From contig CALUIM010000001.1 of the NCBI GenBank assembly GCA_944320725.1, positions 1-64,000 on the forward strand: a stretch of 64,000 bases of DNA, read 5' to 3'. Position 1 is the first letter of the stretch. Every line of letters starts with the position of its first letter. The notes under the pieces were generated by a model, which saw only the letters and a program-made list of their open reading frames with translations, was not told the DNA's origin and made no database searches. Below are positions 18,769 through 25,082 of this stretch, piece after piece. The position numbers and the translations under genes were made by a program. The DNA is from an uncultured Coriobacteriaceae bacterium. GTDB lineage: Bacteria > Actinomycetota > Coriobacteriia > Coriobacteriales > Coriobacteriaceae.

Positions 18769-19509
18769 CTAGCGGTCGAGCTCGATCTCCATGCGGTAAT
18801 AGTCCGGCCGATAGAACGAGTCCACGAACTCGCGCGGCTCATCATGCTGGTCGTACGAGATGCGCGTGACATGAATGAGCGCCGATCCTTCGGGCACGCC
18901 GAGAAACTTCGCATGGGCCACGGTGGCGCACGATGCCGAAATGGTCTGGTTGGCGCGCTTCCACACCACGCCGCATTCGTTGTTTACATAGGAGCGCAGC
19001 GATTCCCGGCTGAAATCACGCACGATCGCCTCGGGAAACCGCTCGTTCTCGTAGTAGTTGAACTCGATGAACGCCGGCTCGGAGTCGAGCAGATGCAGCC
19101 GGCACAGGCGATACAGGCTTGTCCCCTCGTCTACCTGAAGCTGCTTGGCAAGCGATCTGCCTGCGGGGATGATGCTGGCATCGACCTGCACCTTGCTGGG
19201 CAGGGCGCCTTGGCGCATGCAGAAGCACTCATAGTTGCGCACATGCTGCAGCGAGGTATCGGGCACGTTCGAAATGACCACCGAGCCAAACCCGCGGCGC
19301 TTTTCGATTAAACCGTTTGCCGCAAGCATCTCCATGGCACGCCGCGCCGTGATGCGCGACACGTCGTAGCGTTTCATAAGCTCCGTCTCAGAAGGGATGC
19401 GGTCGCCCACCTTGTAGACATGGCTGATGATGTCCTGGAACACAATGTCATACAGCTGAGAATACAGATTCTCTCGAGCGTTCAATGTCACTGCGCGGCG
19501 CTCCGCCAT
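18769..19509 (-). CDS. GntR-family (HutC/UTRA) regulator of the PTS operon
   Basis: 246 residues. N-terminal winged helix (QLYDIVFQDIISHVYKVGDRIPSETELMKRYDVSRITARRAMEML read in parts, GLIEKRRGFGSVV), then a UTRA effector domain (EGTSLYRLCRL, EPAFIEFNYY, PEGSALIHVTRISYD). Start 19509 has AGGGAGGGTGAG. It directly precedes the sugar operon on the same strand, so it is the likely repressor responding to a sugar phosphate. Confidence 0.9.
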   Translation of the reverse strand: MAERRAVTLNARENLYSQLYDIVFQDIISHVYKVGDRIPSETELMKRYDVSRITARRAMEMLAANGLIEKRRGFGSVVISNVPDTSLQHVRNYECFCMRQGALPSKVQVDASIIPAGRSLAKQLQVDEGTSLYRLCRLHLLDSEPAFIEFNYYENERFPEAIVRDFSRESLRSYVNNECGVVWKRANQTISASCATVAHAKFLGVPEGSALIHVTRISYDQHDEPREFVDSFYRPDYYRMEIELDR

Positions 19510-19665
19510 CTCACCCTCCCTAACGCGAACCTGATGCATGAAAAAGATGAACAGTTATCATACACCCGGTTTGCAAAGGCGCTATAAGTGCGTGTTTTAT
19601 TTTTCGGTCGATAAGCAAGCTTTAAGCGCTGTACGCACCAGCGGCACGAATGGTTAAAGCGCCCG

Positions 19666-20484
19666 TTAAATCAGCCCGAAGTGGCGACAGGCAGTGGCGA
19701 CACCGTCGTCCTGCACCGAATCGGTGATGTAGGCCGAGGCCTCTTTGATACTCTCGAGCGCGTTGCCCATGGCCACGGGCGTCTCGACCACTTGGAGCAT
19801 GGGCAGATCGTTTTCGGAGTCGCCGAACGCGTAGGTGTCCTCGACACCGTGGCCCAAAATCTCAAGTGCCTGGCGCACGCCCCAGCCCTTGTCGATGCCC
19901 TTCTGGCCGTATTCGCCATAGCCAATGCCCAGATCGAAGCGCGTGTAATGCTCAAGGCAGAAGTCATCCACCTGTTTGAGGGCCTCAAGCTGGCTCGATT
20001 CATACGAGAACTTGTTGAAACGCAGGTTCGAAAGCTCACGCATCTGCGAGAAATTGCGCGCGACGGGGATGTCGGTATTTCCGGGATAGTTGCCGCCGCC
20101 CGGCACGAGCGTCACGCACCCTTCCGTTCCCTCGAAGATGACCGAGGCGCCCACCTCGGCCAGACGGTCGACCGTCCCCTCGAGCACGTCGAGCGGAATC
20201 ACGCGCTCCTTGACCACGCGCCCGTCAACCGAGACGCACGAGCCGGCACCGGTGATAAGGCCAGCGGGTTCAAGGTCGAGCAGCGATTGCGATACCAAGC
20301 ACAGCGGCCTGCCCGTGCAAATGAACGTCTTATGCCCGTTGTCGCGCAGCGCAAGGAAGGCGTCGCGCACCGCAGGCGTAGGATGCGCCTTGGCAACAAC
20401 CTCGAGCGCGTCCATCGCCGGCGGATGGTAGATGATCGTACCGTCGACGTCGAAGAACAGCACCGCGTACGCTGCAGCCTGCAT
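19666..20484 (-). CDS. HAD-superfamily (Cof-type) sugar phosphatase
   Basis: 272 residues. Motif I FFDVDGTI with nucleophile and acid/base aspartates, motif II CTGRP, and motif IV GDSENDLPML with a Cof-type C2 cap between. Such enzymes dephosphorylate sugar phosphates or cofactors; the substrate is not predictable. Divergently oriented from the rlmKL-like gene. Confidence 0.88.
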   Translation of the reverse strand: MQAAAYAVLFFDVDGTIIYHPPAMDALEVVAKAHPTPAVRDAFLALRDNGHKTFICTGRPLCLVSQSLLDLEPAGLITGAGSCVSVDGRVVKERVIPLDVLEGTVDRLAEVGASVIFEGTEGCVTLVPGGGNYPGNTDIPVARNFSQMRELSNLRFNKFSYESSQLEALKQVDDFCLEHYTRFDLGIGYGEYGQKGIDKGWGVRQALEILGHGVEDTYAFGDSENDLPMLQVVETPVAMGNALESIKEASAYITDSVQDDGVATACRHFGLI

Positions 20485-20607
20485 GGTTGGCTCCTAGCAC
20501 TCGAGAGGGGTTGGGCACATACGATGCGCGCCCGGCGAACTGCGGGCGCATCTCGTATTTCATCATATAATGATGCGCATCGCCACATGACCTACGAAAG
20601 CGCTGCC

Positions 20608-22803
20608 ATGGAATTCTACGCAACCTGTCCAACTGGGTTTGAAACCCAGCTCGCCCGTGAGCTGCGGAGTCTTGATATCCCGCGCGTACGCCCGCTCAAG
20701 GGGCGCGTTGCGTTTGAGGGCGAGGCGCGCAATGCCTATCGGGCGTGTTTGTGGTCGCGCCTTGCAAGTCGCGTACTCGTGGTGCTCGGCCGCTTTTCAT
20801 GCCACGATGCAGACGAGCTCTACGAGGGAACATATCGTCTGCCGTGGGAGGACATCGTACGGTTGCGCGCCACGATTGCGGTGAACGTCTCGGGCGCGAC
20901 ACCCCAGCTTAAAAATACGCACTACAGCGCGCTGTGCGTCAAAGATGCCATCGTCGACCGCATGATCGACGAGACAGGACGCCGCCCCGATGTGGATACC
21001 AAGCACCCCGACGCACGCATCGCCGTCTCGATTCAGCGCGACCGCGCGAGCGTGAGCCTCGACCTCTCGGGCGAGCCGCTGTTCAAGCGCGGTGCAGCCG
21101 CTCGGCGCGATGCCGGTGACCTGCGCCCCGACTATGCCGCCCTGGTCCTCGCCGCCGCGTCATGGCCGGAACTCTGTCGCACGTCCACGCACCCCGTGTT
21201 GGCCGACGTCTCGCCGCAGACGGGCGTGCTTGGCCGCGAAGCCCATGACGAGTTGCACCGCCGTGCACCCGGCCTCGACCGCTCGCACTGGGGCTTTGAG
21301 GGCTGGGCGCAGCATGACGCCGGCGCCTGGATTGCCGAGCGCGAGGCTGCGCGCGAGCGGGCGCAGCGCCATCGCGATGCCTCCGGGCACATCCTCGCTC
21401 TAGGCGAGCACGGCACGAGCAGCAACGAGGACGCAGCGCTTGCCCACGCAAACGCGTGCGCCATCGTGGGCAACCTGCTCCCGCTCTCTACAAGCCGCCT
21501 ACCCCTTACACTGAACCTCATCACGCAGCTGTGCGCCGCGCCCGGATTCAAGGATGCCCCCATTGCCCTCCTGAGCACCGGCGGCGCTGCACCCTGCGCG
21601 CTCCCCGGGCGGCCACGGCCTGCAACCACCGCCGTGCGCCCCGGCAATGAGGAGGCGACGCTCGCGATCTATGTGCCCGCCGACACGCTTACCGACCAGG
21701 CAAACGATGCTCATGCCACCTCACCTGCCCTCCAAGCGTCCACAACCGTAGATGTTGGCAGCGGCAAACCGGTTCCGGTGCTCGTGCCCGCCTCCGAGCA
21801 GTTTGCCCACCGCCTCCAGAAAGTGGCGCGCCTGCGCCGCCGCTGGGCGAAGCGCGAAGGTGTTAGCTGCTATCGCGTCTACGATGCCGACCTCCCCGAC
21901 TACGCCGTTGCCATCGACCTGTTTGTTGGCGCACCCGAGACGCCGGGCCGCTGGCTCCAGATTGCCGAATATGCCGCGCCCAAAACCATCGACCCCGCAC
22001 TCGCCCAAGCCCGTATGCTCGACATCCTCTCGCTTGCCCCACGCATTCTGGATGTCGATCCCGCTTGCGCGCACGCCAAAACACGCATGCGCTCGCGCGG
22101 CGGATCGCAATATGCAAAGAAATCCACCGCGAGCGTGCGCGAGGGCGGAACGGGCTCTGCCGTCGCAACCGGCGGCCTCCCCCACATCAACGAGGGCGGG
22201 CTCACCTTCATCGTGAACTTCGACGATTACCTCGATTGCGGCATCTTCCTCGATCATCGCGTCACCCGCTCGCTGGTGCGCGAGCACATGCATGGCAAGC
22301 AGCGCTTCCTCAACCTCTTCGCCTATACGGGAACGGCAACCTGCTATGCCGCCGACGGCGGGGCGCAGCACACCACGACCGTCGACCTTTCGAACACCTA
22401 TCTCGATTGGGCGCGACGCAACATGCAGCTCAACGGCTTCACGGGCCGCAACCACACCTTCGAGCGTGCCGATGTTCTCTCCTGGATTCGCGAGCAGGGG
22501 CGCAGCACACGGCGCTGGGACCTGATCTTCTGCGATCCGCCCACGTTTTCCAACTCAACCAAGATGGGGCAGCGAACCTTCGACGTGCAGCGCGACCATG
22601 TTGAGCTGCTTTGCGGCGTAGCCAAGTTGCTTGCCGCAGGTGGCGAGGCGATTTTCTCGTGCAATCTACGCTCGTTTAAGCCCGACGTTGACGCGCTTGC
22701 ATGCGCCGGTATTGCCATTGAGGACATCACCGCCGCGACCATCCCAGAGGACTACGCGAGAAACAAGCGCATCCACTGCTGCTACATCGTACGCAACGCC
22801 TAA
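20608..22803 (+). CDS. rlmKL: RlmKL-like 23S rRNA methyltransferase with degenerate first domain
   Basis: 731 residues in RlmKL layout. Residues about 1-155 hold the ferredoxin-like/THUMP RNA-binding part (ATCPTGFETQLARELR, KGRVAFEG). Residues about 160-395 match the RlmL (m2G2445) domain in outline (WGFEGWAQHDAGAW), but the SAM motif DPMCGSGT is replaced by DVSPQTGV (D200) and NPPYGER by NLLPLST (N289). The C-terminal RlmK (m7G2069) domain is intact: CYRVYDADLPDY, FLDHR, NLFAYTGTATCYAA (N569) and CDPPTFSNS (D643). Start ATG 20608 follows GAAAG; 20587 is an alternative. Probably only the RlmK activity remains. Confidence 0.85.
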   Translation: MEFYATCPTGFETQLARELRSLDIPRVRPLKGRVAFEGEARNAYRACLWSRLASRVLVVLGRFSCHDADELYEGTYRLPWEDIVRLRATIAVNVSGATPQLKNTHYSALCVKDAIVDRMIDETGRRPDVDTKHPDARIAVSIQRDRASVSLDLSGEPLFKRGAAARRDAGDLRPDYAALVLAAASWPELCRTSTHPVLADVSPQTGVLGREAHDELHRRAPGLDRSHWGFEGWAQHDAGAWIAEREAARERAQRHRDASGHILALGEHGTSSNEDAALAHANACAIVGNLLPLSTSRLPLTLNLITQLCAAPGFKDAPIALLSTGGAAPCALPGRPRPATTAVRPGNEEATLAIYVPADTLTDQANDAHATSPALQASTTVDVGSGKPVPVLVPASEQFAHRLQKVARLRRRWAKREGVSCYRVYDADLPDYAVAIDLFVGAPETPGRWLQIAEYAAPKTIDPALAQARMLDILSLAPRILDVDPACAHAKTRMRSRGGSQYAKKSTASVREGGTGSAVATGGLPHINEGGLTFIVNFDDYLDCGIFLDHRVTRSLVREHMHGKQRFLNLFAYTGTATCYAADGGAQHTTTVDLSNTYLDWARRNMQLNGFTGRNHTFERADVLSWIREQGRSTRRWDLIFCDPPTFSNSTKMGQRTFDVQRDHVELLCGVAKLLAAGGEAIFSCNLRSFKPDVDALACAGIAIEDITAATIPEDYARNKRIHCCYIVRNA

Positions 22804-22816
22804 GCTGAACGGTTCG

Positions 22817-22844
22817 TTGCACATACCCGCACATAGCGTATAAG
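22817..22844 (+). promoter_or_regulatory. Candidate kup promoter
   Basis: TTGCAC (22817-22822) and TATAAG (22839-22844) with 16-base spacing, about 80 bases ahead of kup. A perfect TATAAT also occurs at 22857-22862 but without a -35. Confidence 0.45.
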
Positions 22845-22922
22845 GTGCGCAATCGCTATAATATCCAGCACGCTGCCGCATAGGGCGGCGGCGCGATCCC
22901 CTGAACGAGGAGAAGGCAACAC

Positions 22923-25082
22923 ATGTCCGAACAATCAGATATCGAGAGCTCGAACGAGCGGCCCCAGGCTGAACCAAGCCAGACCGCAATGTTCAAGGCA
23001 CTCGGAGCCGTGAAGGCCGAGAGCCTCAAGGGCGAGCGCCCGGCGAACCGCCCCAAGACGGTTCCCGGCGCAGAGCACCCCGACGCCCACACCATTCCCA
23101 TCAGCATTGCTGCGATGCTCGTAACGATTGGCGTGGTGTATGGCGACATCGGCACCTCGCCCATGTACGTTACCAAGGCGCTGCTTTCGGGCCAGGGCGG
23201 CATCGGCGTGGTGAACGAGGAGTTCGTGCTTGGCGCGCTGTCGCTCGTCATCTGGACGGTCACGCTGCTCACCACCGTGAAGTACGTGCTCGTTTCGCTG
23301 AAGGCCGATAACCACGGCGAAGGCGGTATCTTCGCGCTCTACAGCATCGTGCGCCGCTATGGCAAATGGCTCATCATCCCCGCCATGCTCGGCGGCTCGG
23401 CGCTGCTCGCCGATGGCGTGCTCACCCCCGCCGTGACCATCACCACCGCCGTCGAAGGTTTGCGCACCATCCCTGAGATGCATGCGCTCATCGGCGACAA
23501 CCAGATGAACGTGGTGGCTATCACGTTGGTCATCGTTTGCATCCTGTTCGCCGTTCAGCGCGCGGGCACCTCGAAGATCGGCCGTGCCTTCGGTCCGGTC
23601 ATGACGTTCTGGTTCCTGTTTTTGGCTGGCGCCGGCCTCATTTCGCTGGTGCTCGCGCCGCAGGTCCTGCTCGCCCTGAACCCGCTCTACGGCATCCAGT
23701 TCCTGTTCTCGGCGCACAACCACGCCGGCATCATGATTCTGGGCAGCTGTTTTCTGGCTACAACCGGTGCCGAGGCCCTCTACTCCGACATGGGCCATGT
23801 GGGCCGCGGCAACATCTACGCAACCTGGCCGTTCGTCAAGGTCTGCCTGATTCTCAACTACCTGGGTCAGGGCGCTTGGCTGCTCGCCAACGCCGGCAAC
23901 CCCGATCTCATGGGCGTCGCCGACCTCAACCCGTTCTTCCAGATGCTGCCCGCCATGGTGCGCCCCTTCGGCGTCATCCTCTCTACACTCGCGGCCATCA
24001 TCGCTTCGCAGGCGCTCATCACCGGTGCGTTCTCGTTGGTATCCGAGGCGAGCCGCCTCGATCTGATGCCGCACATGCAGGTCTTCTATCCCGCCGAGAC
24101 CAAGGGTCAGCTCTACATCCCCATGGTCAACAAGGTCATGTGGATCGGCTGCATCGTCGTTGTACTGCTGTTCCAGTCCTCGGCGCATATGGAGGCGGCA
24201 TACGGTCTGGCCATCACGATCACCATGCTCTGCACCACGGTGCTTCTGTTCATCTACCTGCATCGTGTGCGCAAGGTCAAACTGTTCCCGTGGATCTTCC
24301 TGGTGTTCTTCTTCGCGCTCGAGGGCTTCTTCTTCGGCTCCTCGCTCACGAAGTTCTTCCACGGCGGCTACTTCACCATCCTGCTCGCCGCGCTCATCAT
24401 GATCATCATGCTGTGCTGGTACTCCGGCACCTCGGTGGAGCGTCGTCAGGCAACGCTTTTGCCGCTGCGCAACTATCTCAAGCAACTTGAGCGCCTGCGC
24501 GACGACACCACGTACGACCTTGTGAGCGACAACATTGTCTACCTCACCAACGACACCAACACCGATTACCTCGATCGAGACATCCTCTACTCGATTCTCG
24601 ACAAGCACCCCAAGCGCGCCAAGGCATGGTGGTTCATCAACGTCGAGGTCATGGATGATCCGCGCACGTTCGCCTATTCGGTTGAGAACTTTGGCACCGA
24701 CTACGTGTTCCGTGTGCACCTGTTCTTGGGCTACAAGGTCAACCAGCGCGTAAACGCCTATCTGCGCCAGATCGTGAGCGATCTCTCCGCCTCGGGCGAG
24801 CTGCCGGCCCAGCCGCACGATTACTCCGTGTACAAGCGCCCCGGTCCCATCGGCTCGTTCCGCTTCTACATGCTGCGCAAGACGCTCGCCCCCGAGTCCG
24901 ACGTTGATAGCCGCGAGCGCACCGCCATCGCGCTCAAGTACACGATCCGTCGCTACGCAGGCGATCCGGCTCGCTGGTACGGCCTGGAGAACTCGAGCGT
25001 GTACTACGAGTACGTGCCCATGTTCACCAAATTCAAGAGCGTGAACAAGCTGCATCGCATCGCACCGGACGAGCGTCCGTAG
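22923..25082 (+). CDS. kup: Kup-family potassium uptake protein
   Basis: 719 residues. After a ~50-residue hydrophilic N-terminus the family signature IGVVYGDIGTSPMY opens a block of about twelve membrane helices (to ~residue 500), including DNHGEGGIFALYS, GGSALLADGVLTPAVTI and ATTGAEALYSDMGHVG. A soluble C-terminal domain of ~200 residues follows. Kup imports K+ with protons. Start 22923 has GAGGAGAAGG. A strong terminator follows. Confidence 0.95.
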   Translation: MSEQSDIESSNERPQAEPSQTAMFKALGAVKAESLKGERPANRPKTVPGAEHPDAHTIPISIAAMLVTIGVVYGDIGTSPMYVTKALLSGQGGIGVVNEEFVLGALSLVIWTVTLLTTVKYVLVSLKADNHGEGGIFALYSIVRRYGKWLIIPAMLGGSALLADGVLTPAVTITTAVEGLRTIPEMHALIGDNQMNVVAITLVIVCILFAVQRAGTSKIGRAFGPVMTFWFLFLAGAGLISLVLAPQVLLALNPLYGIQFLFSAHNHAGIMILGSCFLATTGAEALYSDMGHVGRGNIYATWPFVKVCLILNYLGQGAWLLANAGNPDLMGVADLNPFFQMLPAMVRPFGVILSTLAAIIASQALITGAFSLVSEASRLDLMPHMQVFYPAETKGQLYIPMVNKVMWIGCIVVVLLFQSSAHMEAAYGLAITITMLCTTVLLFIYLHRVRKVKLFPWIFLVFFFALEGFFFGSSLTKFFHGGYFTILLAALIMIIMLCWYSGTSVERRQATLLPLRNYLKQLERLRDDTTYDLVSDNIVYLTNDTNTDYLDRDILYSILDKHPKRAKAWWFINVEVMDDPRTFAYSVENFGTDYVFRVHLFLGYKVNQRVNAYLRQIVSDLSASGELPAQPHDYSVYKRPGPIGSFRFYMLRKTLAPESDVDSRERTAIALKYTIRRYAGDPARWYGLENSSVYYEYVPMFTKFKSVNKLHRIAPDERP

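Follow-up and report, generated by a model that had tools for sequence, protein, structure and literature searches.

The window, a 64,000-nucleotide stretch of DNA from an uncultured Coriobacteriaceae bacterium, contains an open reading frame (20608–22803 (+), 731 amino acids plus stop, coordinates and frame verified) whose product is homologous to the bifunctional rRNA methyltransferase RlmKL. The locus raises the question of whether both halves of this protein are still enzymes and, if the RlmL half is dead, whether it still matters.

Domains and motifs of the window RlmKL homologue

The window protein scored 620.4 bits against NCBIfam NF008748 (bifunctional m2G2445/m7G2069 methyltransferase; curated cut-off 466), and the RlmL–RlmK fusion order was present. 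Its best structural and sequence match was E. coli RlmKL (YcbY, b0948; 3v97 and 3v8v), with which it shares the domain order, the THUMP and ferredoxin-like domains, the WGF.GWAQHD landmark, and the RlmK motifs. The two proteins were aligned by phmmer as two pieces (3–262 and 394–729). Pfam profiles matched the RlmL ferredoxin-like domain (residues 2–57, 20611–20778 (+); PF22020, 72.9 bits), the THUMP RNA-binding domain (residues 66–152, 20803–21063 (+); PF02926, 64.8 bits), and the RlmK-type SAM domain. The RlmL methyltransferase domain PF01170 gave no match in the window protein at E ≤ 0.001; on the scale of this profile, eight live RlmL proteins score 126–149 bits.

The RlmL motifs were aligned with E. 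coli RlmL (b0948) as the reference. The SAM motif I, DPMCGSGT in E. coli, reads DVSPQTGV in the window protein (D200–V207, 21205–21228 (+)), and the catalytic motif NPPYGER reads NLLPLST (N289–T295, 21472–21492 (+)), with the Asn kept and PPYGER lost. Gly occupies the acidic SAM-ribose position (D262 in E. coli), and the landmark WGFEGWAQHD (residues 228–237, 21289–21318 (+)) is retained. The distance corresponding to D195–N309 of E. coli (114 residues) is 89 residues in the window protein and 86 in its nearest relative. Nearly all of this ~25-residue shortening falls between the acidic loop and NPPY, a stretch of 47 residues in E. coli compared to 23 in the window protein and 20 in the nearest relative. 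In the RlmK half (residues 395–731, 21790–22800 (+)), a predicted m7G2069 methyltransferase according to the profiles and phmmer, both the SAM motif FAYTGTATCYA and the motif DPPTFSNS (residues 643–650, 22534–22557 (+)) are intact, the latter with nearly all positions invariant in the alignment. The changes in the two RlmL motifs, the cut of the region between them to ~90 residues, the retained WGFEGW..HD, and the intact RlmK half had all been described in an initial annotation of this DNA and are borne out here.

Because RlmL SAM motif I and NPPY are gone, the window protein was filed as an RlmKL homologue with an inactive RlmL half and an intact RlmK half, and not as a bifunctional enzyme. 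Compared to E. coli RlmKL, it lacks RlmL motif I, the acidic residue, and NPPY, its pocket is 25 residues shorter, and its RlmL activity is predicted to be absent. A sequencing or assembly error behind the motif loss was rejected, as the independent MAG G001 (86% identical) carries the same changes. Chance was likewise set aside, as NPPY is missing from all 34 readable RlmL halves of the family. The gene order around the locus (window 18769–25082), with a GntR-UTRA regulator and a HAD hydrolase upstream on the minus strand and a KUP transporter downstream, is the same in G001.

The possibility that RlmL is encoded at another locus of the window's genome was also rejected, as just two PF01170 matches were found at E ≤ 0.001 and both were weak (42.1 and 25.8 bits). 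By their motifs, we take one to be a type I restriction methylase (ANPPFTGS) and the other an RlmD-type protein. That the RlmL half has lost catalysis while RlmK is retained is well supported. So is the prediction that the 23S rRNA carries m7G2069 without m2G2445, since no further strong RlmL is encoded in this 99.46% complete genome. Loss of the rRNA target was rejected for the relatives: G2069 and G2445 are both present in the 23S rRNA of 10/10 relatives, among them G005, which belongs to the same genus as the window and is RlmK-only. The assembly of the window itself gave no match to 23S rRNA. Near helix 74, position 2076 (E. coli numbering) is C in 6/6 rRNAs of the window's family (L073–L078) and U in the families f5 and f2 (defined below) and in E. 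coli.

Selection on the RlmL half and its predicted fold

The dN/dS between the window gene and G001 was 0.091 (bootstrap 0.045–0.162) for the THUMP part (residues 1–176) and 0.089 (0.054–0.132) for RlmK, compared to 0.285 (0.180–0.433) for the methyltransferase (MT) part of RlmL (residues 177–394, 21136–21789 (+)). In the live pair G055/G039, dN/dS of the MT part was 0.034. Among pairs of tree neighbors chosen by the analyst (25 dead and 8 live), the median MT/RlmK protein rate ratio was 3.31 in the dead pairs and 1.32 in the live pairs (p = 1.4e-7). The MT/THUMP ratio was 2.25 in dead vs. 1.52 in live pairs (p = 0.067, not significant), and the RlmK/THUMP ratio was 0.72 vs. 1.04 (p = 0.0007), with THUMP slightly faster relative to RlmK in the dead lineages. 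Rows without RlmL, G016a (contig edge), and G027 (a run of X) were excluded from the rate comparison and from the motif counts given below. Along the MT part, identity between the window and G001 is 80%–87% at residues 209–253 and 287–347, and 60%–67% in the old pocket (254–301) and the tail (348–377).

The dN/dS values and rate ratios therefore show that the enzyme part is relaxed yet below neutrality, i.e., not free, and that the RNA-binding THUMP part is still held by purifying selection. The initial annotation had described decay inside a conserved scaffold. This description gives only part of the picture: THUMP is as constrained as the live RlmK, the MT part is relaxed but itself under purifying selection, and NPPY has been lost throughout the family. 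Retention by selection, one of two features by which we recognized a pseudoenzyme, was thus found in both the MT part and THUMP.

The other feature, a homologous fold with the catalytic residues lost, was found in a predicted structure. AlphaFold2 (43 sequences) modeled the window protein with a mean pLDDT of 87.5 and a pTM of 0.83. The fold of the pseudo-enzyme was confident, with most ten-residue blocks in residues 171–360 at pLDDT 81–96 and lower values at residues 261–280 (69–74), the site of the pocket cut, and 321–330 (71). The best PDB match of the model was E. coli YcbY (Z 35.6, rmsd 7.3 over 633 residues), with the 3v97 alignment spanning residues 1–731. Residues 1–363 share their fold with the stand-alone RlmL-like proteins of Firmicutes (3ldg, 3ldu, and 3k0b; Z about 31), the fit to 3ldg having a Z of 31.0 and an rmsd of 3.4 over 338 residues. 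These are separate proteins, whereas the RlmL half of the window protein is fused, and they presumably keep NPPY. The model shows the RlmL fold persisting, as predicted, in the window protein; the role of this half is not read from the fold.

The retained fold (predicted), the Asn of NPPY kept in the window protein, and G2445 kept in relatives would also fit an RlmL half that still makes m2G through an unusual active site. However, the window protein has lost the glycine loop, the acidic residue, PPY, and part of the pocket, and Ero et al. 2024 (PMC11194073) report that N309A alone abolishes m2G2445 in E. coli. We regard such an enzyme as highly improbable.

Spread and probable order of RlmL losses among relatives

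An RlmKL homologue was found in 56/60 genomes searched, with the window's own counted. The relatives fall into families that include f1 (by named records Coriobacteriaceae, with Collinsella and Enorma; the family of the window), f5 (Atopobiaceae-type, resembling Olsenella/Atopobiaceae records), and f2, which we take to be Eggerthellaceae-type. The motif table comprised 137 aligned rows, E. coli among them, and RlmL was scored as live (NPPYG kept), dead (half present, NPPY gone), or absent. The 19 live rows from outside Coriobacteriales were picked by the pattern NPPYG[EQ]R and thus give no estimate of live-RlmL frequency there. The absent state of G016 is a contig-edge artefact, and that of G298 is possibly another.

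NPPY is retained in 0/34 readable f1 RlmL halves, where Asp (28), Asn (5), or Tyr (1) occupies the Asn position. The f5 main copies have Asp at this position in 30/30, followed by Leu (28), Ser (24), and Trp (21), and f2 is mixed, with live copies that include G245, G280, and G290. NPPYG was found in 0/30 open frames from Collinsella and Enorma records, several of which are RlmK-only or contig-edge pieces. Among the 296 genomes of the class, 77 had a strong PF01170 match (E ≤ 1e-15): 0/52 in f1, 9/79 in f5, and 8/76 in f2 (family totals tallied by hand from genome lists). This search superseded the pattern NPPYG[EQ]R (39/296 genomes), which misses NPPYGVR, NPPYGHR, and others. RlmK (E ≤ 1e-40) was present in 248/296 genomes, including 52/52 of f1 and 78/79 of f5. 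The RlmK motif of most f5 copies (L012, L104, L105, and others) is DVPTFSNS, a conserved change from the DPPTFSNS found elsewhere. A search of the open-access literature found no earlier report of a dead RlmL in Coriobacteriia.

The main tree was built from the RlmK half by a quick search and held 121 rows, after 16 of the 137 had been dropped (14 near-copies, fragments, or a masked row, and 2 of the mirror copies described below). On this tree, 67 rows of f1, f5, and f3, all with dead or absent RlmL, lie on one side of a branch with SH-aLRT 99. The live/not-live label changes at least 5 times and the absent label at least 7 times, some of the latter resting on contig edges. Loss is the plausible direction of the live/not-live changes, though the tree itself cannot separate gain from loss. 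In the alignment across Coriobacteriia, which the initial annotation had suggested along with the structure prediction, the loss of NPPY is clade-wide, older than the window gene, and shared by the Atopobiaceae-type relatives. With at least 5 changes, the Eggerthellaceae-type and other lineages appear to have lost RlmL activity separately from the f1/f5 side.

SAM-type residues are retained in most f1 rows (n = 34), namely D195 in 33, C198 in 30, G201 in 29, and D262 in 30. For this reason, NPPY was probably the first to go, and the SAM-type residues were probably lost later in the lineage of the window and G001. The same counts, next to NPPY in none of the 34, are what would be expected of a ligand-gated pseudoenzyme, in which most halves of the family still bind SAM or SAH and signal to RlmK or to assembly, the pocket having been lost in the window lineage. 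However, the half is still retained in the window protein and in G001, where several of these residues are missing, and we consider ligand gating improbable.

RlmK-only genes of 373–400 amino acids occupy the same place in 5/5 loci checked (G003–G007; L051, L052, L055, L056, and L057), each immediately preceding the KUP potassium transporter gene that also follows the window gene. From this shared position beside the transporter, we infer an in-place deletion of the RlmL half, and these relatives show that the half is dispensable. Further RlmK-only relatives are G029, G038, G252, and G283. Such genes, at the same place and elsewhere, favor the explanation that the dead RlmL half is a roleless passenger en route to deletion, held in frame owing to the RlmK behind it and eroding until a new start codon arises. 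As RlmL precedes RlmK in one frame, an open frame is expected regardless of function. The split gene in G230, the raised dN/dS in the MT part, and the extra pocket losses in the window lineage point in the same direction. On the other hand, dN/dS is equal in THUMP and RlmK and lies clearly below 1 in the MT part, the dead half is retained in 82/121 tree rows across families, and family-specific residues (the Asp, Leu, Ser, and Trp counted above) are conserved at the old catalytic site in f5. A mere passenger is therefore unlikely, albeit far from negligible.

Two THUMP proteins are present in nine f5 genomes (G192, G211, G222, G237, G264, G270, G308, G309, and G311). Their main copy combines a dead RlmL with a live RlmK in the 8/9 genomes read (the G270 main copy was left out). 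The second copy is its mirror image in 9/9 (L166/L171, L167, L168, L169, L170, L172, L225, L226, and L227): DPMCGSGT or DPLCGSGT and NPPYGxR are present, and the RlmK site is broken (e.g., VPPVWMP or LALPAWAG in place of DPPTFSNS). Duplication within the lineage as the origin of the mirror copies was rejected in view of a THUMP tree (likewise from a quick search), where the six tested mirror copies join the f2 gene G290 (99), which is live in both halves, apart from f5's own copies. This placement is most simply explained by acquisition of a complete RlmKL, followed by the death of its redundant RlmK half. The mirror RlmK halves form long branches, and that region of the RlmK tree was set aside. 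In three mirror pairs, the MT/RlmK ratio was 0.41, 0.60, and 1.02, the RlmK half being faster than the MT part in the first two, in agreement with this reading.

Related arrangements were seen elsewhere. A live-RlmL gene (NPPYGKR) at L222:3986–5539 ends at 517 amino acids with its RlmK half cut off, and the frame in L221 is similar (515 amino acids). In G274 (f2, L229), a live RlmL is joined to a dead RlmK and the genome has two RlmK matches; here too, separate genes may carry out the two activities.

Retention of a probable pseudo-methyltransferase

Our preferred reading, to which we give a probability of about 60%, is that only RlmK is enzymatic and that the RlmL half is a pseudo-methyltransferase, which serves RlmK as an RNA-binding arm without m2G2445 activity. 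The NPPY catalytic loop would have been lost in an ancestor common to the whole family, the loss being read from the alignment and its order from relatives. The SAM glycine loop, the acidic residue, and ~25 pocket residues would have followed later in the window lineage. The dead half, as a THUMP-based arm, would still bind helix 74 of 23S rRNA, bring RlmK there, and assist folding, and by analogy with E. coli RlmL(N309A), it may help to open this helix for RlmK and for 50S assembly. The resulting ribosome would have m7G2069 and lack m2G2445. RlmK-only relatives live without an RlmL half, which speaks against a functional half, and our chief reservation concerns the continued importance of the dead half.

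Ero et al. 2024 (PMC11194073) report that 50S assembly is promoted by RlmL(N309A) as by active RlmL, although no m2G2445 is made. There, the assembly effect of RlmL is attributed to its helicase activity, and RlmK alone is without notable effect. As in the window protein, the catalytic loop of RlmL(N309A) is disabled and the remaining half is present. By this analogy, the dead RlmL half is a natural counterpart of RlmL(N309A). In contrast to the laboratory variant, however, the loss of the window type is natural, old, family-wide, and of more than one residue, and its assembly role is proposed by analogy.

A broader proposal, which we hold tentatively and at somewhat less than even odds, is that Coriobacteriales converted RlmKL to an assembly factor in which one enzyme remains live. 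Catalysis by RlmL would have been dropped several times while the RNA-handling body remained under selection, and m2G2445 would have been regained via a second RlmKL whose RlmK died.

For annotation, the score well above the NF008748 cut-off implies a bifunctional enzyme and an m2G2445 mark that is probably absent. Whether an rRNA-modifying enzyme is retained because of its mark or because of the protein itself is a long-standing question. A methylase-dead RlmL appears to have arisen naturally, several times, in whole families of culturable gut bacteria, and their RlmK-only relatives and mirror-image pairs are natural controls for this question. If the assembly-factor proposal is true, the reciprocal half-dead pairs would divide the two jobs of one enzyme and would be nature's own experiment on enzyme versus mark.
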